In this document: positions 2,324 through 43,245 of the stretch, piece by piece
Position numbering within the stretch: position 1 is the first letter of the stretch
How the letters are laid out: each line of letters starts with the position of its first letter
Assembly (NCBI GenBank): GCA_903873415.1
Contig: CAIQOK010000010.1
Coordinates: 1 to 43,245 of the forward strand
Reading direction: 5' to 3'
Length of the DNA: 43,245 nt
DNA from: an uncultured Verrucomicrobiota bacterium
GTDB lineage: Bacteria > Verrucomicrobiota > Verrucomicrobiia > Limisphaerales > CAIQOK01
Program-made: the position numbers and the translations under genes
Notes under the pieces: model-generated
The model's database searches: none
What the model was told of the DNA's origin: nothing
Seen by the model: the letters and a program-made list of their open reading frames with translations, nothing else

Positions 2324-3730
2324 TCAAGGCCCGGTGGGTGAAGGGCGGTTGGGAATGAGCACGGAATCGCCCGGTCGCAGTTTGCGCAGGTTGACATCCG
2401 GATTGGCTGCGCGCAGGGCGCTGATGGAGACGCCGTAGAGGGTGGAGAGGGAACCTTCGTTCTCGCCGATCCCCAGAACATGCGGATGGGTCTGTAGTGA
2501 AAACGGGATTGGGGCGTTCGGGGGTGAGCGCGGGGCGGTTGGGGTCGGGGCGGTTGCAGAGGGATCCTCCGGCAGGTCTTGGCCCAAGGCTTGGGCGTTG
2601 GCCTTGAGTTGTTCAAGCTTGGCGCGCTGCAATGCAATGGCAAGCTGCTCAGGTGTCCAGTTTGTTTTCGACCGCAGGGCGGCCTCCTGCTCGGCCACGG
2701 TCTGACTGATTTCATAGAGGGTGCGTGCGGCGGCGGGATTGCCGGCTCGCTGGGCTGCGGCGAAGGCGTCGCGATAGACGGGATCCTGCAACAACTGAAG
2801 CAGCTCATATCGCTCGGCACCCAGAGCCGTTTTGAGGGTCGTTTCCCGCTGTTGCTCCAGCGACTGACGCTCCGAAATGCCGGCGGCATCGGTGGGCGGG
2901 GTGAGCGTGAGGATTTTGCTGTTGTAGGCGTCGGCGGCATGGAACATGGCGCGGAACTCCTCCGGGGTGGCATTGAAGAATTTGAGCTCCCCTAACTCCG
3001 TCCTGAGGTTGTCCGCTTCGGTGGAGTTGCGCAGCATGTAATCCTCAAGCTGAGGCGGGGTAAGTATATGGGCCAGCTCTTCGCGGGCCTGCTTGCGCAG
3101 CCGCCCCAGTTCGGCCGGATCCGGGGCGAGTCCGGCGGCCTGGCGCGCGGCCAGATAAGCGGCGGAACGGTCGCCGGCCCGCGTGTCGGCAGCTTGGAGT
3201 AAGTCCTTGAGCTCGGCTGAAAGCTGGCTCAGCACCGGTCCGTCCAGCTTGACTCCGCGGCGGGATGGGCGGGGAAGATTGTTGAGGTCGCCGGCCTCCC
3301 AGCTTGCCCCGAGCAGTTGGGTGAGCAATCTGCGGCGCTCACTTTCCAGGCCGCGCAGTTTCTCCACCGCCGCCCGCAGAACCCGGGTGTCGGGCTCGCT
3401 CCGCCACCATTGTTGCTCGGGCGTGGTCACCTCGCTGCCCATGCGCCGCGCGAACAGGGAATTGACGTCCGCAATGATGATGTCGCGGATGGTGGGTTCC
3501 GGACACCCGATGTCGCGCAGGTTGGCGATATAACGGGAGTAGTCGGTGGACTCGATCTGGGACCAGGAAAAGAACTGTTTGCGGACGACGACATTGGTTT
3601 TGACCAGCAACTCGCGTTCATGCCCGGCGGAGTTGCGGGCGTGGGGCGGGGCGGGGACCCAGTGCAGACAGAGAGTGCCCAGAACGAGGTTGATGCCCAA
3701 AGCGACAAAAAATAATCCGCGCCAGCGCAT
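2324..3730 (-). CDS. Membrane-anchored protein with C-terminal LysM domain, function unknown
   Basis: 468 residues. The N-terminus (MRWRGLFFVALGINLVLGTL) is a signal anchor or uncleaved signal peptide, which puts the rest in the periplasm. The middle (about 60-360) is helical and charged, rich in Glu, Arg and Ala, with no domain I recognise. A Pro/Thr/Ala-rich linker follows, then a LysM-like module in the last 50 residues (HVLGIGENEGSLSTLYGVS ... ALRAANPDVN ... LRPGDSVLIP), which usually binds peptidoglycan or chitin-like glycans. The open frame runs upstream to 4162, but that part lies inside purM on the other strand; the ATG at 3730 starts exactly at the hydrophobic segment. Divergent from purM, 168 bases apart. 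Confidence 0.8.
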   Translation of the reverse strand: MRWRGLFFVALGINLVLGTLCLHWVPAPPHARNSAGHERELLVKTNVVVRKQFFSWSQIESTDYSRYIANLRDIGCPEPTIRDIIIADVNSLFARRMGSEVTTPEQQWWRSEPDTRVLRAAVEKLRGLESERRRLLTQLLGASWEAGDLNNLPRPSRRGVKLDGPVLSQLSAELKDLLQAADTRAGDRSAAYLAARQAAGLAPDPAELGRLRKQAREELAHILTPPQLEDYMLRNSTEADNLRTELGELKFFNATPEEFRAMFHAADAYNSKILTLTPPTDAAGISERQSLEQQRETTLKTALGAERYELLQLLQDPVYRDAFAAAQRAGNPAAARTLYEISQTVAEQEAALRSKTNWTPEQLAIALQRAKLEQLKANAQALGQDLPEDPSATAPTPTAPRSPPNAPIPFSLQTHPHVLGIGENEGSLSTLYGVSISALRAANPDVNLRKLRPGDSVLIPNRPSPTGP

Positions 3731-3898
3731 ATGGTTTGTTGGAGTGATCCTTGTCCCGACCGGAGCGAAATGCAATATCGAAAAATAATCCCGGAAAATT
3801 GAGGCCCGCTCCGGGCGGACGCTGCGGGCGCGTTCGGTTGCGGAATTCCGGGAAATTTTCTCGCCCGCCGCCGGGTTTGTGGATTTAATTTCCGCCGC

Positions 3899-4966
3899 AT
3901 GAAACAAAAAGCTTACGCCGCCGCCGGCGTTGACATTGATCTGGGCAACAAAGTCAAAGCCACACTGCCCCGGCTGCTGGCCAGCACCCATCGCCCCGAG
4001 GTGCTCGGCAAGGTCGGCGGCTTTGGCGGCCTCTTCGCCTTGGACCTCAAAAAATACCGCCAACCCGTCCTCGTCTCCTCCGTGGACGGCGTTGGGACCA
4101 AGCTGAAAATCGCCTTCGCCCTGGACAAGCACGACACCATCGGCGCGGATTTGGTCAACCACTGTGTCAACGACATTGCGGTGCTGGGGGCTGAACCGCT
4201 CTTCTTTTTGGATTATCTGGGCACAGGCAAGCTAGAGCCCTATGTGTTCACCGAGATTATCAAGGGTTTCGCCCGCGCCTGCTCGGAAAACAACTGCTCC
4301 CTCATCGGTGGCGAGACCGCCCAGATGCCCGGCTTCTATCAGTCGGGCGAATACGACGTCAGCGGCACCATTGTGGGTGTGGTTGAAAAGTCCAGAATGC
4401 TCAATGGTCAGAAGACCGTCAAACGCGGCGACCTGGTCATCGGCATCGCCTCCAGCGGCCTGCATACCAACGGATATTCGCTGGGCCGGAAAATCTTTTT
4501 CGATCAGCTCAAGCTCACCCCCAAGAGTCGCGTGCCCGGACTCAAAGGCTCTATCGGTGAGGAACTCCTCAAGGAACACATCAGCTACGGACCGCTGGTG
4601 CAAAAACTTCTAAAGCGCTTCAATTTCCAAGCCCCCGGCCCCAAGTCCCCTTTGCCTGTCAAGGCCTTCGCCCATATCACCGGTGGCGGCTTCGTGGATA
4701 ATATCCCCCGGGTGCTGCCCAAATCCCTCGACGTGCTGATCAACAAGGGATCCTGGGACATGCTACCCATCTTCCAAATCATCGAGCAGAAGAGTGGCGT
4801 GCCTGATGAGGAACTCTACCAGGTCTTCAACATGGGAATCGGCATGGTGGTCATCGTTTCGGCTGACATGGCGGCGCCGGCACTCAAATTCATCCGCGCC
4901 CAAAAACATCAGGCTTGGATCATTGGCGAGGTGATCAAGGGCACGGGTGCCGCACGGGTGGTTTAG
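3899..4966 (+). CDS. purM: Phosphoribosylformylglycinamidine cyclo-ligase PurM (AIR synthetase)
   Basis: Fifth step of de novo purine synthesis: ATP-dependent closure of the imidazole ring of FGAM to give AIR. 355 residues, normal for PurM. Family stretches visible: SSVDGVGTKLKIA, GADLVNHCVNDIAVLGAEPL, GGETAQMPGFYQ, HTNGYSLGRK, AHITGGGFVDNIPRVLP and QVFNMGIGM. The ATG at 3899 gives the expected MKQKAYAAAGVDIDLGN start. It is transcribed away from the LysM gene and ends at a bidirectional terminator shared with the FKBP gene. purD lies 1.1 kb downstream on the same strand, so two purine genes are close but not in one operon. Confidence 0.96.
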   Translation: MKQKAYAAAGVDIDLGNKVKATLPRLLASTHRPEVLGKVGGFGGLFALDLKKYRQPVLVSSVDGVGTKLKIAFALDKHDTIGADLVNHCVNDIAVLGAEPLFFLDYLGTGKLEPYVFTEIIKGFARACSENNCSLIGGETAQMPGFYQSGEYDVSGTIVGVVEKSRMLNGQKTVKRGDLVIGIASSGLHTNGYSLGRKIFFDQLKLTPKSRVPGLKGSIGEELLKEHISYGPLVQKLLKRFNFQAPGPKSPLPVKAFAHITGGGFVDNIPRVLPKSLDVLINKGSWDMLPIFQIIEQKSGVPDEELYQVFNMGIGMVVIVSADMAAPALKFIRAQKHQAWIIGEVIKGTGAARVV

Positions 4967-5063
4967 GGCTGCCGCCGCATTTGGAGGGATCCCCGAGGGC
5001 CACTGGTTCGGTCCTTTCTCTGGAGGCTGGCCCCTGAGAGGGTGGAGGATTCAGACAGCCTGC

Positions 5064-5103
5064 AAAAAACGCGCCAGACCTAAGTCCGGCGCGTTTTCTT
5101 TTA
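5064..5103. terminator. Bidirectional Rho-independent terminator between purM and the FKBP gene
   Basis: The arms AACGCGCC (5068-5075) and GGCGCGTT (5088-5095) pair perfectly, and after one mismatch GAC/GTC extends the stem around a CTAA loop. A run of A (5064-5069) lies on the left and TTTTCTTTT on the right, so the hairpin has a U-tract in both directions. It lies between two convergent stops (4966 and 5118), the expected place for a shared terminator. Confidence 0.85.
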
Positions 5104-5117
5104 AGCAGGCCCACCGT

Positions 5118-5957
5118 CTATTTTTTATCGGGCGCGGAATCCGGGGATTTGATGACTTCGATTTTGGCCCCTTTCTTCATCTCCTCGCTGGAGGGGACGC
5201 GGATGATGTCGCTGGTCATCGGCTTGGCCGGGACGGCGCTGGGGGCCGGTTCGGCGGGCTTGGCATCCAGAAGTTCCACCTCGAAAATGAGGGTTGAATT
5301 CGGCCCGATCCCCTGGGTTCCGTGATCCCTGTAGGCCAGGCTGGCTGGGATGAAGAGCTGCCACTTGGATCCGATCTTCATGTGCTGCATGGCCTCAGTC
5401 CAGCCGCGGATGACGCGGTTGACGGGGAATTGAGCTGGCTTGCCACCATGCTTGGCCGAGCTGTCGAATTCCGTGCCGTCAATCAGGGTTCCCCGATAGT
5501 TTACGGACACGACATCATTGCTGCCGGGCATTGCACCGGATCCTTCGACAAGGATCTTGTATTGGAGCTCTGCCAGGGGTTCGTCGGGGAGTTTTACGGG
5601 AAGAATCTTCACACCCGGCTTGGTTTTGTTTTCCGCCAGAAAAGCATCCCCCTGCAACTGGTTTTTTTTCCCGAGCTTTATCTTCGCCTCGGCCTGATAG
5701 GCCATGATGGCTTCACGGGCTTGGTTTTGATCCAGTTTGGCCGGGCGGCCCGCCAGCATGTCCTTGATGGACGCGAGCATGATGTCGGTGTCGACATCCA
5801 TGTTGCTGTTTTTAAGCTGGTTGCCAAAGAAAATGCCTATGGCGTAGCTGGCCTTGTCCTTGGGGCTGGCAAAAGCGGCGACGTTGGTCTGGGCCACCGC
5901 TGCGGAACCGGCCGTCGCGAGGGCCGCCAGTAAAATGAGTTGGGTCGCTTTTTTCAT
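5118..5957 (-). CDS. Exported FKBP-type peptidyl-prolyl cis-trans isomerase
   Basis: 279 residues. A Sec signal peptide (MKKATQLILLAALATAGSAA, cleavage near A22-Q23) is followed by a Mip/FkpA-like helical dimerisation region (about 30-110) containing SYAIGIFFGNQLK. The FKBP catalytic domain is at about 131-232 and shows VSVNYRGTLIDGTEFDSS, VIRGWTEAM, SKWQLFIPASLAY and STLIFEVELLD. A Pro/Ala linker and a 45-residue charged tail end the protein; the tail is not part of the usual family. By family it helps fold proteins in the periplasm or outer membrane. Divergent from purD with 125 bases between the starts. Confidence 0.93.
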   Translation of the reverse strand: MKKATQLILLAALATAGSAAVAQTNVAAFASPKDKASYAIGIFFGNQLKNSNMDVDTDIMLASIKDMLAGRPAKLDQNQAREAIMAYQAEAKIKLGKKNQLQGDAFLAENKTKPGVKILPVKLPDEPLAELQYKILVEGSGAMPGSNDVVSVNYRGTLIDGTEFDSSAKHGGKPAQFPVNRVIRGWTEAMQHMKIGSKWQLFIPASLAYRDHGTQGIGPNSTLIFEVELLDAKPAEPAPSAVPAKPMTSDIIRVPSSEEMKKGAKIEVIKSPDSAPDKK

Positions 5958-32648: not shown

Positions 32649-33386
32649 AATCAGCCGCAGATCCCGCCGACCCGCCGTCGGCCCTCGGGATCCTCGACTG
32701 GGGATCTGGATCGTTTCGTTTGTGCCACTTTTCGCAAGAGCCTCAACCTGGCCTTTGCCCGTTTTCCAGCCTCCACCTTAACCCATGGGATTGTTCATGA
32801 TAGATGCCACTTCTACGTAATCCGCCTCGGTAGTTTTATGGAGGCCGCCGCATCGCATTTAGTGATGAGCAGGCATCTGTGATCCGTAAATCCCCTGTGT
32901 TAACTGAGGGCGCAACGGACGTCCTCGCGTCATTGAAACTTAATTCAGGGTGATGCTTTATCCTCGGTGGGTGCGGGCGGTCAGGCCGAACTGCCAAGGA
33001 TGTGGCTGAGGTCCGTTGTCTGAATTCGTCGCCGGTCGGCAGGTCGGGATTGCCGGGAGTGCAAACGCCGCGCCTCAGGAGGGCGGACAACTACGGGCGG
33101 CGAACAAGGGTGGAACCAGAACGCACTGCTGCCTCACGACTGACGGCTCTCATTCGGATCGTTCGCCTCCTTCCCGGGGGGGGGCTGCCAGTGCGGAAGT
33201 GCAGGGGTTGATTGAGAAAATATGCTTTGCGATCCATGCCTGCTGCACTACGCTAAATTTTCATCTATATGTGGAAGATTGATCGGCATGATCGCGGGCT
33301 GCGCAGGTTGCGCCATGCCATTTAGCCCGACAGACGACCGTGCTTTGAAAGCTTCACTTCTCCTGGGCGATAACCGTCAAGAAAGC
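32649..33386. other. 738-base gene-free region between the LytTR gene and the signalling operon
   Basis: Short open frames occur on both strands but none resembles a protein. The frame of the response regulator extends back to 33222 with internal ATGs at 33288 and 33315, yet receiver homology begins only at 33387. The region should contain the divergent promoters of the LytTR gene and of the ten-gene operon, and perhaps a long leader; I could not pick a convincing -35/-10 pair or LytTR direct repeat by eye. Confidence 0.5.
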
Positions 33387-33764
33387 ATGCGAAAAATATT
33401 GTTGGTTGAGGATAACGAAATGAACCGGGACATGCTCTCGCGCCGCTTGGAGCGGCGCGGCTTCCAGGTGTTGATCGCCGTGGACGGGGGGCAGGGGGTC
33501 GCGATGGCGCGGTCGGATCTTCCCGAACTCATCTTGATGGATATGAGCCTGCCGGTCATAGACGGTTGGGAGGCCACGCGGATGCTCAAAGCGGATGCGG
33601 CCACGCGGGGAATTCCTGTGATAGGCCTGACGGCTCATGCCATGGCGGGCGACCGGGAAAAGTGCCTGGAAGCGGGCTGTGACGATTACGACACCAAGCC
33701 CGTCGAGCTGGTGCGGCTTTTGGAGAAAATCAACGTCCTGCTTCCCAGCAGCCCCGCACCGTGA
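33387..33764 (+). CDS. Single-domain response regulator (CheY/DivK-like)
   Basis: 125 residues, receiver domain only. Acidic pocket E8-D9 in LLVEDNEMNR, phosphoacceptor D52 in LILMDMSLPVIDGW, the switch T82 in IGLTAHAMAG, and K104 in DTKPVE are all present, so it should be phosphorylatable. No output domain, so it must act by protein contact, or as phosphate carrier between kinase and other receivers. The ATG at 33387 starts exactly at MRKILLVEDN. It heads the operon; its TGA overlaps the GTG of the phosphatase gene. Confidence 0.9.
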   Translation: MRKILLVEDNEMNRDMLSRRLERRGFQVLIAVDGGQGVAMARSDLPELILMDMSLPVIDGWEATRMLKADAATRGIPVIGLTAHAMAGDREKCLEAGCDDYDTKPVELVRLLEKINVLLPSSPAP

Positions 33765-35227
33765 GCAACCCCGTTTCCAGTCCCGATGGTCTGGCGCAAT
33801 TGCGGCATGACCTGCGCACGCCGGTCAACCAGATCATTGGCTACAGCGAGATGCTTGAGGAGGATGCCGAGGCGTCCGGGCACAGCCCCTACGTTTCCGA
33901 TCTGCGTAAGATCCAGTTTGCCGCGCGCACTCTGCTCGGCTTGGTTGACACCCGGCTTGATGCCGGGGTTCTCGGAGGTTTTGCCCCCGTTCCGACGAAA
34001 CCGGCGCAGGCCCACGAGCGCGTTCAATCTCCTTTCGCCAAAAGCGCCGACGGTGAGAATGAGAGTGTTCGGATGGCGGGCCGGGTGCTGGCAGTGGATG
34101 ACAATGAAAACAACCGCGACGTCCTGACCCGGCGTTTGCAGCGTCACGGGCTGACGGTGGAGAGTGCCGCCGACGGACTGCAGGCGCTGGCCTTGGTGCG
34201 CGCCCGGTCTTTCGATCTGGTGTTGTTGGACATTATGATGCCGGAACTTGACGGCTACAGTGTGTTGCAGCAGATGAAAGCCGATCCCCTGACGCGCCAC
34301 ATTCCGGTCATCATGATTTCCGCGCTGGATGAGTTGGATGGCGTGGTTCGATGCATTGAGGCGGGTGCCGAGGATTATCTGCCCAAGCCCTTCAATCCTA
34401 CCTTGCTGCGCGCCCGTATCAGCGCCTGCCTGGAAAAGAAGTCCCTTCGGGATGCGGAGCAGAGGCATCTGCAGTTGATCGAGGAGACCAAGCGCCGCTT
34501 GGACGAGGAGCTGGCGGAGGCGGCGCACTATGTCCGCTCAATTTTTCCTCCCCCCACCTCGGCTCCGCTGGCCATCGACTGGAAATATGAGCCGTCAACC
34601 GAGTTGGGCGGGGACGCGTTCGGCTACCACTGGATTGACGCCGATCATTTTGCCGTTTATTTGCTGGACGTTTGCGGCCATGGCGTCGGGGCGTCACTGC
34701 TCTCGGTCACGGCCATCAACGTCCTCCGTTCCGGTTCGTTGCCCGCCACCGATTTCCGCAATCCGGGCGCGGTCTTGTCCGCCCTGAACAATGCCTTCCA
34801 GATGGAGCGGCAGAACAACATGTATTTCACCTTGTGGTATGGGGTCTATCATGCCCCTAGCCGCACGCTCCATCACGCCAGTGGCGGCCATCCCCCCTCG
34901 CTCCTGCTTGCGCCCGATGCCACCGGGGCGTTTGCCAGCCAGCGTCTGATTTCCCCGGGCCTGATCATCGGGGCGATGGAGGACGTGGTTTATGCGGCGC
35001 AGTCATGCATCGTGCCGCCCGGGGCGCACTTGATGGTTCTCTGCGACGGGTGTTATGAGGTGGCGGACGCGGAGGGAGAGATGCTGGATTTTGACGAGTT
35101 TGAGAAATTCATGCAGCTCAACGGGATCCGGCCTGACGGCTTGGATCAGCTCTTTCAGTGGTTGAGAGTGCGCCACGGCGAGGGCCCGTTGGATGACGAT
35201 TTTTCAATGGTGCGAATCCAGTTTTGA
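33761..35227 (+). CDS. HisKA-receiver-PP2C (SpoIIE/RsbU-type) phosphatase
   Basis: 488 residues. Residues 11-65 form a HisKA-like segment with H16 in [20 protein letters not shown] but no ATPase domain follows. A receiver at about 107-225 has D113-D114, phosphoacceptor D157 and K209. A coiled linker (225-260) leads to the PPM/SpoIIE phosphatase: F262PPP near its start, GGDAFGYH (D285), LLDVCGHGVGASL (D303) and DDDFSMVRIQF at the end. By family, phosphorylation of the receiver controls dephosphorylation of STAS proteins; STAS genes lie just downstream. GTG 33761 overlaps the upstream stop by four bases. The orphan HisKA closely resembles that of the kinase at 41673. Confidence 0.92.
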   Translation: MSNPVSSPDGLAQLRHDLRTPVNQIIGYSEMLEEDAEASGHSPYVSDLRKIQFAARTLLGLVDTRLDAGVLGGFAPVPTKPAQAHERVQSPFAKSADGENESVRMAGRVLAVDDNENNRDVLTRRLQRHGLTVESAADGLQALALVRARSFDLVLLDIMMPELDGYSVLQQMKADPLTRHIPVIMISALDELDGVVRCIEAGAEDYLPKPFNPTLLRARISACLEKKSLRDAEQRHLQLIEETKRRLDEELAEAAHYVRSIFPPPTSAPLAIDWKYEPSTELGGDAFGYHWIDADHFAVYLLDVCGHGVGASLLSVTAINVLRSGSLPATDFRNPGAVLSALNNAFQMERQNNMYFTLWYGVYHAPSRTLHHASGGHPPSLLLAPDATGAFASQRLISPGLIIGAMEDVVYAAQSCIVPPGAHLMVLCDGCYEVADAEGEMLDFDEFEKFMQLNGIRPDGLDQLFQWLRVRHGEGPLDDDFSMVRIQF

Positions 35228-35229
35228 GC

Positions 35230-35649
35230 ATGAACGATCTCTTTGTTCTTCAAGTCCGAAATGACCTTGCGGCGCTGCCCGCCGCGTGCGAGGCGCTGAG
35301 CCAATGGCTGGCTCAGAGGGATGTCCCCCCGGCCGCCGACTATCTGGCCAATCTGGCCCTTGAGGAACTCGTCACAAACTGTATTAAATACGGATACGAC
35401 GATGCTCTCGAGCACACCATCGAAGTCGAGGTGAAGCTTTCCGACACCGAAATGGTTTTCACGTTGGCGGACGACGGGCACGCCTTCAATCCGCTGGACT
35501 TGCCCGAGCCGGACCTCAATCTTCCGGTGGGGGAGCGATCCATTGGAGGATTGGGGATTCATCTGCTCCGCAAAATGTCCAGCCGGGTGGAGTATTCCCG
35601 CGAGCAGGGAAAGAACCGGGTGTCGCTTTATAAAACCTTGGGAAGCTGA
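35230..35649 (+). CDS. RsbW-like serine kinase / ATP-binding anti-sigma-type protein
   Basis: 139 residues, a HATPase_c_2 domain of the GHKL type. N box EELVTN (45-50), G1 box DDGHAFNP (81-88) and G2 box GGLGIHLLRK (106-115) are visible. In partner-switch systems such kinases phosphorylate a serine on STAS antagonists and otherwise hold a sigma factor or another effector. Two STAS genes follow directly. ATG 35230 lies two bases after the phosphatase stop; a TTG at 35224 that overlaps the stop is the alternative. No sigma factor is encoded in the window. Confidence 0.9.
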   Translation: MNDLFVLQVRNDLAALPAACEALSQWLAQRDVPPAADYLANLALEELVTNCIKYGYDDALEHTIEVEVKLSDTEMVFTLADDGHAFNPLDLPEPDLNLPVGERSIGGLGIHLLRKMSSRVEYSREQGKNRVSLYKTLGS

Positions 35650-35672: not shown

Positions 35673-36017
35673 ATGAATCTTGTGTTTAACGAACTGTCGG
35701 ACGGAATCCGGGTGATTGGCCTGGGTGGAAGTCTCGATCTGGCCGGAACCGCCTCGGTTGAGACCCGATTCTATGCGCACTGCAATGCCGAGGTCCCGCG
35801 GATCGTAGTTGATCTGTCGGCCACGACCTTTGTCGGCTCGCTGGGGATCCGGATGCTGCTCCAAGCCATCAAATCCGCCAAGGCCCGCGGCGGCCGACTG
35901 ATCATGATTCATCCCGCCGCGGCTGTAGCCTCCACGCTGGAACTTGCCGGTCTGGGATCGTTTTTGCTGAAGGGGGGAGCAGATGAGGCGGTTGCTTTGC
36001 TGGCCGCCGGAAAATAA
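35673..36017 (+). CDS. STAS-domain antagonist protein (SpoIIAA/RsbV-like)
   Basis: 114 residues, a single STAS domain. The signature IVVDLSATTFVGSLGIRMLL holds the phosphorylatable serine, S56, in the usual place at the start of the helix. It should be a substrate of the RsbW-like kinase and of the PP2C phosphatase encoded just upstream. Twenty-three bases separate it from the kinase gene. Confidence 0.9.
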   Translation: MNLVFNELSDGIRVIGLGGSLDLAGTASVETRFYAHCNAEVPRIVVDLSATTFVGSLGIRMLLQAIKSAKARGGRLIMIHPAAAVASTLELAGLGSFLLKGGADEAVALLAAGK

Positions 36018-36076: not shown

Positions 36077-36460
36077 ATGAACCAACTCAACATCACGCTG
36101 AATCAGAAGACCACCTCCACCGGACACTTGGAGATCACCCTGAAGCTGGACGGGAATCTGGACAATACCACCGTCGCAGCCCTTCAGGCCAAGCTGACTC
36201 CGAGTCTGGAGGCCAAACCTGCGCAGCTGATCTTTGATCTCGCCTCGCTCAAGTATGTCACCAGCATCGGCATCCGCCTTTTCTTCATGGCGGTGAAACA
36301 GCAGAAGCCTCACGGTGGTCACGTTTCTTTTGTCCACTTGCAGCCTCAGATCAAGGAGGTCTTCGCCATCATGGGAAGCCTTCCCGACATGAGCATTTTC
36401 CGGGATCAAAACGAGCTGGACGCCTATCTCCTGGCCCGGCAGCGCACGTATCAATCCTGA
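36077..36460 (+). CDS. Second STAS-domain protein
   Basis: 127 residues. The STAS fold shows LIFDLASLKYVTSIGIRLFF with S63 at the phosphorylation position, and an N-terminal strand HLEITLKLDGNLDNTTV. It differs well from the preceding STAS protein and has a longer C-terminal helix (FRDQNELDAYLLARQ), so it is not a recent copy. Two STAS proteins beside a single kinase suggest either competition for it or separate targets. Confidence 0.9.
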   Translation: MNQLNITLNQKTTSTGHLEITLKLDGNLDNTTVAALQAKLTPSLEAKPAQLIFDLASLKYVTSIGIRLFFMAVKQQKPHGGHVSFVHLQPQIKEVFAIMGSLPDMSIFRDQNELDAYLLARQRTYQS

Positions 36461-36490: not shown

Positions 36491-38563
36491 ATGTTGGAAA
36501 CCATTAGGCGTCTGGCCCTCGGGCTTTTTCTGCTGGCTCTCTCGGCTGCAGTGTTGCTTTACACGGATCGCGGATCGCGCCGGCACCCGGCCAAAGCTGC
36601 GGCGGGGGCGGCATCTTCTGGGAAGGTTTTTCGTGTTGCCCTGGTTCAGCACGCATCGGTTCCGCCATTGGAGGACGGAGCCCATGGGGTGCTTGAAGCT
36701 TTGGCTCAGCGGGGCTATTCCGACGGCGGGCGTATCTCGGTGAAGCGTTACAACGCCGAGTCAGATATCGGCACTGCCAATGCGATTGGCAAGGAGGTCA
36801 CCAGCGGCGGATATGATCTGATTGTGAGTGTCAGCACCATTTCGCTGCAAACGATCGCCAACGCAAACAAGTTCGGGCGCAGGACTCCACACGTGTTCGG
36901 GTTGGTGACCGACCCCTATGCTGCCGGGGTGGGGATAGAGGCCACCAACCACGCGATTCATCCTGCCTACATGGCAGGCTATGGCTGCATGCAGCCCGTA
37001 GAGACCATCTTTCGCACTGCCCTGAGCATGCGGCCGGAGCTCAAGTCGGTGGGGTTGGTGTGGAATCCGGCCGAGGCCAACTCCTTGGCTCAGACCAAGG
37101 CGGCCCGGAAAGTGTGCAGCAACCTTGGGATCCACCTCGTGGAGGCCAATGCAGAGAACAGCACTGCCGCAGTGGAATCCGTTCACTCTCTCATCTCCCG
37201 CGACGTCGAGGCCATCTGGATCAGCGGTGATATCACGGTGTCCCTGGCGGCGGACATGATCATCAATGCGGCGAGGCAGGCGAATATTCCCGTATTCAGC
37301 TCCATGCCTCCCACCGTCAAACGAGGGGCTCTTTTTGATCTGGGTGCGAATTATACCGAGGTGGGCCGTGGTATTGGCGCGCTGGCCGCGGAGGTGCTGG
37401 ATGGAAAGGACACGGCCGGAATTCCTGTTGAAAACAAGGTTCCCGAGCTGTTTTTCTTCAACGAGACAGTGCTGGCCGGATTGAAACAACGGTGGAGCAT
37501 ACCAGCCCCGGTCCGACAGCGGGCCAAAGGATGGATTACGGCCACGGAAACCAATCTGCCTGCGGCTTCACCGCTAGCCTCAGCCGCCGAGCCCCGCGCG
37601 AAGTCCGGTCGCGTTTATAAGATCGGATTGGCCTACTTTGCCCCTGAGGCCGGGGCTAAATCCTGCATCCGCGGTGTTTTTGACGGCTTGCGTGAACTTG
37701 GTTTCGAGGAGGGAAAGAATCTGGAGGTTCAAAGGGCACACGCCCAGGGTGAAATTGCTAATATTCCACTTATTCTGCAGAATTTTGACTCGTCCACAGT
37801 CGATCTCGTGCTTCCTATGAGCACGCCGGTTATCAGTGGCGCCTGCGGCTTGGTCCATCGAAAGCCGGTGGTCTTCACGTATTGCTCGGATCCCGTTGCC
37901 GCCGGGGCAGGGACTTCGTTCGCCAACCACTTGCCTCAGGTCACCGGGGTGGGATCGTTTCCACCCGTTCAGGACATGGTGGATTTCATACATAAAACCC
38001 TGCCGGCAGCGAAGACGATCGGAACCATTTATAACGCATCGGAGGCCAACTCAGTGAAGGTAGAGGAGGTTGCCCGCGGCTTGTTTGCCGCCGCGGGTAT
38101 CAAGCTGGATGAGATTACCATCGGTTCCTCGGCGGAGGTGCTGCAGGCTGCCCAGGCGCTGGTCAGTCGCCGCGTTGATGCTTTTTATATTCAGGGCGAT
38201 AACACCGTGTCTCAAGGGTTTGATGCAGTGGTCAAGGCCGCTCAGGATGGCAAGATCCCTCTGTTTGTAGATGATCCGGACACGGCGAGGCGTGGGGCCA
38301 CCGCCTGCATCGGACTGGGCTACTATCGGCCCGGTTATGCGGCGGCCAAAAAGATTGCCCGCGTTCTTCTGGGGGAGAGCCCTTCAGGGATTCCCATTGA
38401 AAATGTTTCGGAAAAAGCCGTGTGGCTTGATCTGGCTCAGGCGGAGCGGCTGGGGTTCAAATTTCCCGACGATATTCTTGCGGAGGCGGAGCGGGCTCGA
38501 ACCGGCGCCTCTCCGGAAAGCCCGGCGCCTGCCAGTTCAACTCCGCACCTCAAGTCCAAATGA
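36491..38563 (+). CDS. Double ABC_sub_bind (TrpX-like) substrate-binding protein, membrane-anchored
   Basis: 690 residues. An N-terminal hydrophobic helix (about 8-27) with few positive charges may be a signal anchor. Two copies of the PF04392 periplasmic-binding fold follow, about 46-345 (FRVALVQHASVPPLEDGAHG ... LKSVGLVWNPAEANS) and about 378-665 (YKIGLAYFAPEAGAKSCIRG ... AKTIGTIYNASEANS), joined by an Ala/Pro-rich linker. Each half keeps the LxxRxVDAxxIxGD-type block (DVEAIWISGDITVS; RVDAFYIQGDNTVS). Characterised relatives are predicted to bind tryptophan or similar amino acids; the ligand here is unknown. Permease and ATPase genes follow, interrupted by a STAS gene. Confidence 0.88.
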   Translation: MLETIRRLALGLFLLALSAAVLLYTDRGSRRHPAKAAAGAASSGKVFRVALVQHASVPPLEDGAHGVLEALAQRGYSDGGRISVKRYNAESDIGTANAIGKEVTSGGYDLIVSVSTISLQTIANANKFGRRTPHVFGLVTDPYAAGVGIEATNHAIHPAYMAGYGCMQPVETIFRTALSMRPELKSVGLVWNPAEANSLAQTKAARKVCSNLGIHLVEANAENSTAAVESVHSLISRDVEAIWISGDITVSLAADMIINAARQANIPVFSSMPPTVKRGALFDLGANYTEVGRGIGALAAEVLDGKDTAGIPVENKVPELFFFNETVLAGLKQRWSIPAPVRQRAKGWITATETNLPAASPLASAAEPRAKSGRVYKIGLAYFAPEAGAKSCIRGVFDGLRELGFEEGKNLEVQRAHAQGEIANIPLILQNFDSSTVDLVLPMSTPVISGACGLVHRKPVVFTYCSDPVAAGAGTSFANHLPQVTGVGSFPPVQDMVDFIHKTLPAAKTIGTIYNASEANSVKVEEVARGLFAAAGIKLDEITIGSSAEVLQAAQALVSRRVDAFYIQGDNTVSQGFDAVVKAAQDGKIPLFVDDPDTARRGATACIGLGYYRPGYAAAKKIARVLLGESPSGIPIENVSEKAVWLDLAQAERLGFKFPDDILAEAERARTGASPESPAPASSTPHLKSK

Positions 38564-38626: not shown

Positions 38627-38668
38627 CAGGCCGACACGGATTTTTAAGCCCCTAAGCCTTGCTTGACC

Positions 38669-39919
38669 ATGGAAATCACTCAACATTCCCGCCGAGGCGG
38701 TTTGGAATTGCGGCTTGTGGGCCGAATGGACGCCAACTGGGCTGATCATGTGGGCAATGCCATAGAAACAGCTATCCGCGCCGGTCTGCATGCGGTGGAT
38801 TTGAATTTCGCCGGGGTGGATTATATCAGTTCGGCGGGGATCCGCATTTTGTTGAAATACCACAAGCAGCTTAAGTCGGCGCGCGGTGTGTTGAGGGTGG
38901 TGCAGCCGGCCGAAAGCGTTCTGACGGTTCTGAAACTTTCCGGCATTGCCGGAATGCTTGTGGCGGAGGCGGCTTCCCCTGCGGTGGCCGTTTCCGCGCC
39001 GGTAGCACCTGATGTGTGGCAACGGAATGGAACTGTTTTTGAGGTCTACGAGCAGCGACCGGGTTGTGTTCTGGACTGCTTTCCGCACGGCCGGCCTGAA
39101 AAACTTGCCACAGGCCAACTCTCCGGGGATTCGGGAAGCCGCCTCTGTTTTGATAACGAGACCTTTGGTTTGGGATTAGGCGCCTTTGGAAAGGACCCGG
39201 CCGGAAGTCGCGGGCGCTACGGGGAGTTTCTGGCTGTCGGCGGGGCTGCTATTACCCAGCCCACCGATGGGAGCAGCGTTCCGGACTTTCAAATCACGCA
39301 GGGACAGCTGGTGCCGGAGGCCAATCTTCTCTATGGCCTGACCGGTAAAGGTTCTTTTGCCCGTCTGTTCCGGTTCGAGTCCTCAGGCAGTCAGCGGGGC
39401 TCTCTCGGATTGGCAGAACTGGTGGAGGGAGTTCTGGAAAACCTGCAGACCAACGCCGCAGGTTTTGCCATCCTTGCCGAGAGCTCGGGGGTCGTTGGCG
39501 CCCACCTTCGTCAATCCCCTGATCTTGCAGCCGGTCAATCGCCCTGGACGTTTCCCGGCGTGCGCGACTGGATCTCTTTCACGACCGAGCGCAGCGATGA
39601 GCGGAATCTGGTTTTGATTGTCGGCTTTGCCGAGCGCCTGCCGCCGGCTGAATCCAGCCTCTTTCTCCGTCCTCTTGGTAAAGGAACCACGGCGCAGGGA
39701 CATTTTCATGCTGTGGTCTTTCCCTATCGGCCGCTCCCTAAAGGGAATCTGGACTTGAAGGAGGCGGTGGCCGGGTTGATGTCGACGGAATCGGCCCGAT
39801 CGGTTCTCCACCTGCTGCCCGATGAGCGCGAATTTGAGGGGGTCGGGCAAACGGATTTGATGCGCGGGGCCTGCTGGGCCGGGCCGTTGAGAATCAAGGG
39901 GCGCACCCCGGAAAACTGA
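38669..39919 (+). CDS. STAS domain fused to a 300-residue C-terminal region of unknown type
   Basis: 416 residues. Residues 1-103 are a STAS domain: VDLNFAGVDYISSAGIRILL with S54-S55 at the phosphorylation site. Residues about 120-416 match nothing I know; they contain GCVLDCFPHGRPEKLATGQL, CFDNETFGLGLGAFGKDPAG, SRGRYGEFLAVGGAAITQPT, AELVEGVLENLQTNAAGFAI and HFHAVVFPYRPLPKGNLDLK, with a mixed alpha/beta look and no membrane segment. It lies between the binding-protein and the permease genes and is soluble, so it may tie the partner switch to the transporter. ATG 38669 is used; a TTG two codons upstream is possible. Confidence 0.8.
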   Translation: MEITQHSRRGGLELRLVGRMDANWADHVGNAIETAIRAGLHAVDLNFAGVDYISSAGIRILLKYHKQLKSARGVLRVVQPAESVLTVLKLSGIAGMLVAEAASPAVAVSAPVAPDVWQRNGTVFEVYEQRPGCVLDCFPHGRPEKLATGQLSGDSGSRLCFDNETFGLGLGAFGKDPAGSRGRYGEFLAVGGAAITQPTDGSSVPDFQITQGQLVPEANLLYGLTGKGSFARLFRFESSGSQRGSLGLAELVEGVLENLQTNAAGFAILAESSGVVGAHLRQSPDLAAGQSPWTFPGVRDWISFTTERSDERNLVLIVGFAERLPPAESSLFLRPLGKGTTAQGHFHAVVFPYRPLPKGNLDLKEAVAGLMSTESARSVLHLLPDEREFEGVGQTDLMRGACWAGPLRIKGRTPEN

Positions 39920-39927
39920 TTTCACAC

Positions 39928-40866
39928 ATGATATTGCTCATTGGTGCTACCTCGATCGGACTCATCCTCGCCCTTCTGGCGTTGGGTGTTTACCTCAGCT
40001 TCCGGATTTTCAACTTTCCGGATATCACGGCAGACGGTTCGATCACCTTGGGGGCCGCAGTGACGGCCACGCTGCTGGCCCATCATTGGGCGCCGGCAGT
40101 GGCGACGCTGGCCGGGTTTGCTGCAGGCATGGTTGCGGGAACAATCACCGGACTGCTTCATACCAAGTTCAAAATCAACGAACTCCTGAGCGGTATTCTG
40201 GTCATGACCGCCCTGTATTCGGTCAATCTCCACATCATGGGAAAGAGCAACGTGCCGCTGCTCAATGAATCCACTCTGGCCAGTCAGGCTGAACAAGTGG
40301 CATCTTATCTCTTTCGCGGTCCGGCGGATTTGAATGTCCTGGGGTGGCCGGTGAGCATTCGTGACTTCGCCGTCCTCAGCGGAGTCCTGGCACTGGTGGT
40401 CCTCGTGGGTCTCCTCCTCTATCTGTTTTTTCAAACCAATCTCGGAACCGCCATGCGGGCAACCGGGGACAATCCACAGATGATAAGGGCCCTGGGGGTC
40501 AGTGTGGATTACATCCTGATTCTCGGCCTGGCCTTGTCCAATGGACTGATCGCACTGGCCGGTTCCCTGCTGGCGCAATATCAGGGCTTTGCGGATGTGC
40601 AGATGGGCATCGGCATGGTGGTCTGGGGGCTGGCGAGCGTCATCATTGGAGAATCCCTGGTGGGCGGTCGCCGGATCGGCCTGCTGATTGTCGGTGCGGT
40701 CATGGGCTCGATTCTGTTCCGTCAACTGGTGGCCATCGCACTGCGATGGGGCTTGAATCCTAACGATCTCAAGTTAATCACGGCGGGGTTTGTATTTGTG
40801 GCGCTGGTAGCCCCGGCCCTGTTGCGTAAATTCAAATCAGCTCCCGCCAAACCCGCTGCCGCCTGA
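39928..40866 (+). CDS. ABC transporter permease (TrpY/branched-chain type)
   Basis: 312 residues with about eight or nine membrane segments; BPD_transp_2 (LivH-like) family. Recognisable are LALGVYLSFRIFNFPDITAD, GSITLGAAVTATLLAHHWAP, the FKINELLSGILVMTALYSVN segment, GTAMRATGDNPQMIRALGVS (the cytoplasmic loop that contacts the ATPase) and GMVVWGLASVIIGESLVGGR. It forms the channel of the importer with the ATPase that follows one base after its stop. It starts eight bases after the STAS-fusion gene. Confidence 0.9.
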   Translation: MILLIGATSIGLILALLALGVYLSFRIFNFPDITADGSITLGAAVTATLLAHHWAPAVATLAGFAAGMVAGTITGLLHTKFKINELLSGILVMTALYSVNLHIMGKSNVPLLNESTLASQAEQVASYLFRGPADLNVLGWPVSIRDFAVLSGVLALVVLVGLLLYLFFQTNLGTAMRATGDNPQMIRALGVSVDYILILGLALSNGLIALAGSLLAQYQGFADVQMGIGMVVWGLASVIIGESLVGGRRIGLLIVGAVMGSILFRQLVAIALRWGLNPNDLKLITAGFVFVALVAPALLRKFKSAPAKPAAA

Positions 40867-40867
40867 T

Positions 40868-41680
40868 ATGCTTGAGATTGCGAATATTACCAAGACGTTT
40901 CACCCCGGCACCCCCAACGAGGTGCGAGCCCTGCGCGATGTCTCTTTGCGGCTTGAGGCCGGATCGTTCCTGATCATCATCGGCACCAATGGCTCGGGTA
41001 AATCCACCCTGCTGAATGCGGTGGCGGGAACCTTTCTGGTGGATGAGGGACAAATCGGATTGGCCGGGCATTCGATCACGCGATGGTCGGAGCATCAACG
41101 GGCCAAACTCATCGGTCGCGTCTTCCAAAACCCCTTCAGCGGAACCGCGCCCAACATGTCCATTGCCGAGAACCTGGCCCTGGCGGCCCGACGCGGCCAG
41201 CCCCGGGGCCTTGGATGGGGGCTGACGCGCAAGCTCAGGCAGGAACTTCAGGCCCGCATTCGCACCTTGAATATGGGGTTGGAAAGCCGCATTGATAATC
41301 CCATCGGCACTCTCTCCGGCGGACAGAGGCAGGCGTTGACCCTGTTGATGGCCTCCTGGCTGAAGCCCGAACTCTTGTTGCTGGACGAACATACCGCCGC
41401 ACTGGATCCCAAGAGCGCAGACCAGGTCATCCGGCTGACGCATGAAATTATTCAGCGGGACAGGTTGACGACCTTGATGGTGACCCATTCCATGCAGCAG
41501 GCGGTGAATCTGGGGAACCGGATCGTTATGATGCATCGCGGGCGGGTTCTGCATGATTTGCAGGGTCCGGAACGCGCCCGGGTGAGGCCGGAAGATTTGT
41601 TGAAACGATTTGATGAGGTGCGCCGACGGGAACAACTGGATCCTGCGGTGGCGGACATGCTGCAGAAAAATTATGTCTAG
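40868..41680 (+). CDS. ABC transporter ATPase (TrpZ-like)
   Basis: 270 residues. Walker [10 protein letters not shown] (39-47), Q-loop [20 protein letters not shown] (Q87), signature LSGGQRQ (149-155), Walker [14 protein letters not shown] with catalytic E174, and H-loop VTHS (H207). The DEHTAALDP variant is typical of ATPases that go with PF04392 binding proteins. All catalytic residues are present, so it should power import. It starts one base after the permease gene and overlaps the kinase gene by eight bases. Confidence 0.93.
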
Positions 41681-43245
41681 AGAGCAAATCGCCGCTTTGC
41701 CTCAGCCATCCCAACCCGGCAAAACCAGACGCGGCATTGCCCGACAGTTGCAGTGGTCTGTTGGCGCTGCTGCCGCGCTGGCCCTCGGGGTCACCATCCT
41801 CATCAACTACCAGTTGGCCAGAGCCGAGCTCATGGAGCAGGCTAATGCCCGGGCTGTCTCGGAGTTGCACGCGGCGGTAAACCGGATGGACGATTTCGTG
41901 CTCCGGATGAATTCCCTGGCTCAGAGTCTCATCGCCCGCCAGCAGGCTCTCGGATTGAAAGATTATGGAGACCGGAAGGGGTGGCAGGATTTCATAGCGC
42001 AGCTGCTTGCGGGCCAGTCCGAAAAAGAGGTCTGGGATCTTTTTCTAGCCTATGACCGCAAAACTTCGCAGGACACCAATTCGATGCGTTGGGTTGATCG
42101 CAAGAGCTGGCCCAACATGCAGATCCTGCATTATGACTACCATGACCCGAAGCAGGACTGGTATTCCGGTCCTAAAGCGTCCGGCAAGTTTTACGTCACC
42201 GAACCGTATTTTGATGAGGGCGGATCGGACATCACCATGGTCAGTCTGACCCAGCCGGTGAGGGTGGGGGGCGAATTCTTCGGTGTTGCCGGAGTGGATC
42301 TTTCGCTCGACCGGATTGTGGAGATGGTGGGGCAGATCAAATTGCGGCTGCACATGCAAGGTGGCAAACAGGAAACGGACGCGCAGTTTGCCTATCTGCT
42401 CAGCCGCGGCGGCAAGGTTGTGGCACATCCCAATGCTTCCCTGATGGCGCATCGCGGGGGCGGGGGCGTGGACGTTGGGAAATTGCCCGGCGGCGGCGTG
42501 ATCCAGTTAAAGCCGGAGGGGACCATGCAGACAACCCTTCTGGGCCGCAAGATGCGTGTGTTCTGGAACACCTCCCAACTCACCGGCTGGAAACTTGTTC
42601 TCAATGTGCCCGAGGAACTTATTCTGGCCCCGGTCTTCAGCATGACCGTCAGCACTCTGGTGGTCGGGTTGGGCGGGTTGGCGCTTACCCTTATTCTATT
42701 GGCCTTTATCGCCCTAAGGCTGGCCAGACCCATTCTTGAATTGCGCGTTGCTTCCAGCGCCTTGCAGCATGGGGAATTCAACACCGCGCAACTGGATAGT
42801 CTTGCGCAGCGGCCCGACGAGCTCGGCGATCTGGCGCAGGGCTTTGTGACCATGGCCGGACAAATCCAGGCCCGCGAACAGCAGTTGGCCCGATGGAATC
42901 AATCCCTTGAGTCCACCATCCAGGAGCGGACGACCGAGCTCAAGGAGGCCGTGGCCCAGGCGCAGCAGGCTCGGGAGGAGGCGGAGATGGCGAACCGGAC
43001 GAAGAGCGCATTTCTGGCGAACATGAGCCACGAGCTGCGCACACCGATGAACGCGATCATCGGCTACAGCGAGATGCTGACCGAGGAGGCAGAGGATCTG
43101 GGACAGGAGAGTTTCGTGTCGGACCTAAAGAAGATCAATTCCGCGGGCAAGCATCTGCTGGGGCTCATCAACGATGTGCTGGATCTCTCCAAGATCGAGG
43201 CGGGCAAGATGACCGCATATTGTGAGCCGTTTGACGTGGCAGTCA
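41673..43245 (+). CDS. dCache-HAMP sensor histidine kinase, 3' end beyond the window
   Basis: 524 residues seen. A first membrane helix (about 23-45) and a second near 325-350 enclose a periplasmic dCache sensor with the typical [39 protein letters not shown] and [14 protein letters not shown] stretches; such domains often bind amino acids. A HAMP domain ([20 protein letters not shown]), a coiled coil (about 400-440) and a HisKA domain with H453 in [20 protein letters not shown] follow; the sequence ends before the ATPase domain. It may continue with receiver domains. ATG 41673 overlaps the ATPase stop by eight bases, so it is co-translated with the transporter. Confidence 0.92.

Follow-up and report, generated by a model that had tools for sequence, protein, structure and literature searches.

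The 43,245-nucleotide stretch analysed here (the window) carries at 38669-39919 a gene for a protein of 416-418 aa, referred to as STAS-X, in which a STAS domain and a linker are followed by a domain of about 300 residues, referred to as domain X; this gene, its parts, and the switch and importer genes of the window given below lie on the + strand. The reading frame extends from 38663 to 39919, with 418 codons from a TTG and 416 from the ATG at 38669, and the ATG is the likelier start because most homologues start at the equivalent ATG. The STAS domain (38669-38968) had been called normal, with serines S54-S55, in a preliminary description of this DNA, and PF01740 indeed matches residues 14-97 (8.8e-11). 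The serine pair, numbered S56-S57 from the TTG and S54-S55 from the ATG, is encoded at 38828-38833, with S57 at the usual STAS phosphosite position, and each serine is at least 90% conserved in the alignment of STAS-X homologues. In a full-length AlphaFold model (pLDDT 84.8), the STAS half is nearest to SpoIIAA and RsbV (Foldseek, TMt mostly 0.76-0.89), while MlaB is a weaker match (TMt 0.60-0.73); STAS-X has the STAS profile, the fold and the phosphorylatable serine of an anti-sigma-factor antagonist of the SpoIIAA/RsbV type. A linker of 11 residues (103-113; 38969-39001) is disordered in this model (pLDDT <50), and domain X, with a predicted AF0104/ALDC/Ptd012-like fold (AlphaFold and Foldseek), occupies 39011-39895. 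Promoter and terminator scans remained at or below chance.

As also described previously, the STAS-X gene sits between a binding-protein gene and a permease gene. The former (36491-38563) encodes a tandem TrpX-like substrate-binding protein (SBP) with an N-terminal hydrophobic anchor and two ABC_sub_bind units (PF04392, 2.4e-96, in two stretches), and its match to NF041285 falls below the cut-off of that profile. The permease is TrpY-like with a BPD_transp_2 domain (39928-40866; PF02653, 1.8e-31), followed by a TrpZ-like ABC ATPase of 270 aa (40868-41680; PF00005, 8.1e-29) that shares 46-56% identity with TrpXYZ-type ATPases. The ATPase ends in a conserved, distinct tail of 19 residues (41621-41677), common to the operon ATPases, whereas generic TrpZ-like ATPases (259-266 aa) end differently. 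A reading of this tail as an MlaF-style extension was rejected, and the tail argues only weakly for docking, because relatives without STAS-X differ there in sequence and fall short by only ~6 residues. Right after the ATPase gene lies a Cache-HAMP-HisKA kinase (41610-43245), cut by the window end, which may sense for the STAS-X importer system.

Five genes related to partner switching precede the SBP gene on the same strand. These encode a response regulator receiver (33387-33764; PF00072, 6.8e-23 on the longer frame 33222-33764), a receiver fused to a SpoIIE-type PP2C phosphatase (33761-35227; PF00072, 5.6e-30, and PF07228, 1.7e-34), an RsbW-type serine kinase (35224-35649; PF13581, 2.9e-26), and two single-domain STAS proteins (35673-36017, with PF01740 at 1.5e-14, and 36077-36460, with a STAS match at 36125-36406). 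In a search of the window's own genome, this kinase was the only strong stand-alone PF13581 match (7.8e-26), the next match (2e-9) lying inside longer frames. No sigma gene was recognised within the operon, and four sigma70_r3 matches lie elsewhere in the genome, so that a sigma factor may still be a partner. A competent partner switch is supported by the retained S-S site, the SpoIIAA/RsbV-like STAS domain, and the presence of this kinase in the operon.

Family, fold and conserved residues of domain X

The roughly 300 residues behind the STAS domain had been described as lacking an assignable motif, and domain X indeed has no Pfam or NCBIfam match even at E ≤ 10. None of the 34 family members has a significant Pfam match in X, and the PDB sequence matches of STAS-X are confined to the STAS part, with none in X. 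Since no sequence family matches X, a common family with an unrelated housekeeping role was not encountered. With X alone as the query, matches at E ≤ 0.001 were obtained in 19 of 388 genomes of the same phylum, although one of them (L019, 3e-4, a repeat protein) was discarded, and the GTDB genome collection held 15 STAS-X loci, mostly in Verrucomicrobiota and two in Acidobacteria. Spread by viruses or plasmids was also considered and dropped, as two viral-contig scans and a plasmid tblastn returned no STAS-X. X is not a chance ORF, because its conservation at the protein level extends to another 33 aligned sequences, which come from Verrucomicrobiota and Acidobacteria. Family A comprises 25 aligned sequences including that of the window, whose relatives share 29-68% identity in X; the nine sequences of family B have about 20% identity to family A in X. 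The fusion is old and stable, since all 33 members with an available N-terminus carry the STAS domain. One contig of 5.6 kb (L056, G004:C252) holds two identical, inverted family-B gene copies and is probably an assembly palindrome. Domain X and the STAS-X architecture represent a new family and a new arrangement built from known folds, and no paper in the literature searched names both "STAS domain" and "acetolactate decarboxylase".

The structure prediction and fold search proposed in the preliminary description pointed to the fold of ALDC and PTD012. An AlphaFold model of X alone, built from 14 window and GTDB sequences (pLDDT 85.6, pTM 0.89), gave 15 Foldseek matches in the PDB at E ≤ 0.001, namely 14 ALDC or ALDC-like chains and human PTD012 (1xcr; 6.1e-6, TMq 0.50). 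The top match was ALDC 5yho, both with X alone (5.3e-7) and with the full-length model (3.0e-7), and the similarity to ALDC covers nearly the entire domain (TMt 0.55-0.63). PPC/DUF296 proteins came next (Foldseek probability 0.94-1.00), and all significant PDB matches of X fall into these groups. Because the model matches ALDC, PTD012 and PPC/DUF296 proteins, X very probably adopts the AF0104/ALDC/Ptd012-like fold, as a branch of it that is unlisted. The earlier characterisation of the region as soluble alpha/beta was right as a description, but the predicted model is mostly beta. A PP2C-like fold, the first guess from sequence, was ruled out by the model and the fold search, and a viral-fold library returned nothing for X at E ≤ 0.001, with merely weak DUF296-type matches.

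Judged by sequence, X is not a member of PF03306 (ALDC) or PF08925 (DUF1907/PTD012), as the former profile matches 0/34 members at E ≤ 1 and the latter likewise 0/34; a DUF1907 search in the phylum gave no match, with its controls also unmatched. Profile-profile comparison of X with ALDC by hhalign was weak (P about 0.001, probability 22%; reversed control P 0.27), and the GE(F/M) strand and the ALDC "NLFCAIRIDGSF" strand are among the short stretches that align. A global hhalign alignment was discarded for its meaningless end alignments.

Across the two subfamilies, a small set of polar residues is retained. E188 of the GE(F/M) motif (39224-39226) and D208 (39284-39286) are invariant (34/34 each), the candidate metal ligands H347-x-H349 (39701-39709) are found in 33/34 members and correspond to the HxH of ALDC in the matching late strand, and H383 (39809-39811; 34/34) is a candidate third ligand. 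In the predicted model, H347 and H349 share one late strand and H383 lies on the following one (strand 262-266 of X), making the three candidates for a metal site of the three-His kind found in the ALDC and PTD012 branches. In PTD012, zinc is bound by three His, and work from 2025 established this protein as a 3-dehydro-L-gulonate decarboxylase (PMC12435205). A metal site at H347/H349/H383 is likely, given the resemblance of the conserved His to the ALDC pattern and to the zinc His of PTD012. The match to ALDC is nevertheless partial: of its HxH, GGH histidine at +11 and RSVP arginine, only the HxH is kept in X. In ALDC sequences of the same phylum the third His follows the H-x-H by 11 residues, whereas H383 follows it by 34, and nothing in subfamily B generally matches the arginine motif. 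It could be argued that the ALDC match is fold resemblance only and that X, binding neither ligand nor metal, has a role in structure or oligomerisation, as would suit the weak sequence-profile similarity between X and ALDC. Yet the residues conserved across ~20% identity are not confined to the core but include three His, a Glu and an Asp, and this explanation appears very improbable. A decarboxylase/PTD012 fold with conserved His and Glu makes X more likely to be enzyme-like or ligand-reading than a pure docking domain.

Genomic context of STAS-X in related genomes

Family-A loci with enough sequence share the order SBP, STAS-X, permease and ATPase, with the exception of L047, where three other ORFs separate STAS-X from the permease. 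Among the 388 genomes, family-A X and the close permease clade (E ≤ 1e-100; 56-83% identical to the window's permease) occur in the same 13 and in no others, and X is absent from three further genomes with permeases of 38-41% identity. Ordinary TrpXYZ-type plasmid operons encode SBP, permease and ATPase without STAS-X. The link of family A to an ABC importer, as put forward in the preliminary description, is thus well supported by fixed gene order and by a permease clade shared in 13/13 genomes, and SBP, STAS-X, permease and ATPase constitute the minimal unit. The idea in the preliminary description that X may be the output of the partner switch, for instance by docking to the ABC ATPase or by replacing the missing sigma factor as the kinase's partner, is partly supported. 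As is typical of MlaB-type proteins, STAS-X is co-encoded with an ABC ATPase. The SBPs of STAS-X loci (36491-38563 in the window, and those of L025, L042, L044, L047, L050 and L035) contain 1-4 ABC_sub_bind units per chain (378 to 1350 aa) and have an N-terminal hydrophobic stretch, and each adjoins one permease/ATPase pair. Family-B loci (L014-L018 and L020-L024) encode STAS-X with a motif like GEMITIGGTMVWLPTDGHDTPDFLIPK and lack importer genes nearby; neither an ABC importer of the STAS-X-operon kind nor common neighbours were seen in their neighbourhoods. Importer docking is therefore not a general function of the family, since subfamily B has STAS and X without nearby ABC genes.

Where the upstream sequence of a family-A locus suffices, an RsbW-type kinase gene lies nearby in 10 of 17 cases, so the kinase is frequent but not obligatory. 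In L044, a single chain (2793-5231) combines Cache, HAMP, SpoIIE phosphatase and HATPase_c_2 kinase domains and is a switch phosphatase and kinase fused to one sensor. Two of the alternative explanations concern the switch. In one, STAS-X acts like any other anti-sigma-factor antagonist, X being an accessory domain, and frees a sigma factor encoded elsewhere in the genome, and its place among ABC genes reflects co-regulation only. While the resemblance of its STAS domain to SpoIIAA/RsbV and the four sigma70_r3 matches in the genome are in line with this, the constant SBP/permease placement and the co-occurrence with the permease clade in all 13 genomes, even where no kinase gene is near, render it improbable. 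In the other, X senses a ligand or metal without catalysis and through its occupancy controls the STAS domain, so that STAS-X reports the importer's cargo to the kinase/phosphatase pair, being a sensor and not an output. Such a role would suit an operon that holds two further STAS proteins along with the sole strong stand-alone RsbW-type kinase of the genome, the SpoIIAA/RsbV-type STAS fold, and the retention of STAS-X without ABC genes in subfamily B. However, the kinase gene is absent beside 7/17 testable family-A loci and the fully conserved His/Glu set exceeds the needs of a simple sensor, leaving this explanation rather unlikely.

A neighbourhood search with an ALDC profile, made once ALDC had emerged from the fold search, revealed true PF03306 genes inside two family-A operons, L044 (1053-1811, +) and L050 (5709-6473, +). 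The order in L044 is STAS, ALDC, NMT1-like, Cache/HAMP/SpoIIE/HATPase, SBP x4, STAS-X, permease and ATPase, while L050 has kinase, ALDC, SBP x3, STAS-X, permease and ATPase. One of these two ALDC genes lacks and the other has a lipoprotein-type signal. As ALDC occurs in 31 of 145 genomes (about 21%), roughly 0.02 in-operon cases would be expected by chance, a figure that is the author's estimate and not a formal test. The window's own genome contains no PF03306 enzyme, which counts against the mechanism proposed below. A STAS gene is next door in two more of the 20 ALDC loci examined, compared with a total of 0-10 STAS genes per genome in nine genomes (six in that of the window). In these two (L112:8964-10236 and L114:6844-8802), ALDC adjoins a single-domain STAS gene away from any STAS-X, and L114 additionally has an RsbW-type kinase.

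In a further alternative, STAS-X is itself catalytic and, as an ALDC-like enzyme, decarboxylates or hydrolyses a 2-hydroxy or 3-oxo acid delivered by the importer, with the STAS domain merely localising or switching it. Beside the true ALDC genes in two STAS-X operons, the invariant His, Glu and Asp of X speak for catalysis, as does the position of ALDC and PTD012 as its nearest folds, the latter being itself a beta-keto acid decarboxylase (PMC12435205). X does not retain the ALDC Arg motif or the spacing of the third His, and catalysis is a serious possibility, albeit one judged to fall short of even.

Proposed mechanism and relation to known systems

STAS proteins are chiefly known for switching sigma factors. 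To our knowledge, MlaB is the one structurally solved case of a STAS protein as an ABC-ATPase partner. In MlaB-MlaF, the interface between the STAS protein and the ABC ATPase includes the phosphosite position (PMC7367683). The favoured interpretation is that STAS-X is a dedicated cytoplasmic partner of the TrpXYZ-like importer. Domain X, with the probable metal site H347, H349 and H383 and the further conserved polar residues E188 and D208, would bind or process the imported organic acid or a product thereof, while the N-terminal STAS domain would serve as a docking and switch module. With S57 unphosphorylated, the STAS domain would engage its partner, for which the ATPase of the importer is the likeliest candidate, just as MlaB engages MlaF; in this operon, the RsbW-type kinase may also be a partner of the unphosphorylated STAS domain. 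Phosphorylation by the kinase would then release STAS-X, which would be reset by the receiver-bearing phosphatase of the SpoIIE type. That the STAS domain is closer to SpoIIAA/RsbV than to MlaB favours the kinase over the ATPase as the partner. If X binds or processes its ligand and the STAS domain switches, X would couple a cytoplasmic metabolite to importer activity. Computation shows the two domains, the fold, the conserved residues, the constant operon and the co-occurrence with the permease clade; from these we infer that metal binding, a ligand or substrate, ATPase docking and phospho-control may all belong to STAS-X. The overall proposal, an importer-dedicated, STAS-switched ALDC-fold subunit that binds or processes cargo and so couples a metabolite to the importer, has in our judgement about an even chance of being right. 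More tentatively, this may be a hitherto undescribed STAS-switched, metal-dependent ALDC-fold family acting as a cytoplasmic gate or processing subunit, and hence a sigma-less switch with an enzyme-like, transport-coupled output.

If confirmed, this would be the second system to link STAS and ABC proteins, one equipped with a defined small-molecule module, and a new branch of the ALDC/PTD012 superfamily without a Pfam or NCBIfam entry, and it would allow the targets of sigma-less partner switches to be tested directly. The permanent fusion of STAS to a decarboxylase-fold domain, encoded with one importer clade, is an architecture that suggests a metabolite-reading or -processing step tied directly to the importer.

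Among known proteins, ALDC (AlsD/BudA, PF03306) resembles X in predicted fold, the GE(F/M) strand and the late H-x-H strand, and is also linked to STAS-X through the true ALDC genes in two of its operons. X differs in matching no Pfam family, in its 10-15% identity, in the third His at +34 instead of +11, in lacking a general counterpart of the RSVP arginine motif, in its STAS fusion and in the absence of a secretion signal. PTD012/C11orf54 (DUF1907, PF08925) shares the fold class, and the three-His zinc site is that of PTD012, but X has no Pfam match and only 11-12% identity to it, and PTD012 lacks a STAS fusion. Like MlaB with MlaF, STAS-X contains a STAS domain, is encoded together with an ABC transporter and is dedicated to it; MlaB, however, is a short single STAS domain, whereas STAS-X combines a longer STAS domain of the SpoIIAA/RsbV type with domain X, its transporter is a TrpXYZ-like importer, and its docking to the ATPase is a proposal. 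The operon shares its SBP, permease and ATPase families with TrpXYZ-type importers (ATPases 46-56% identical) but differs in the STAS-X gene between SBP and permease, the anchored SBP of 1-4 units and the ATPase tail. Finally, it resembles RsbU/RsbW/RsbV and sigma-less switches such as SypA/SypE in its PP2C phosphatase, RsbW-type kinase, STAS proteins and retained S-S site, and is set apart from them in that no sigma gene was recognised and one of its STAS proteins carries an enzyme-fold domain.
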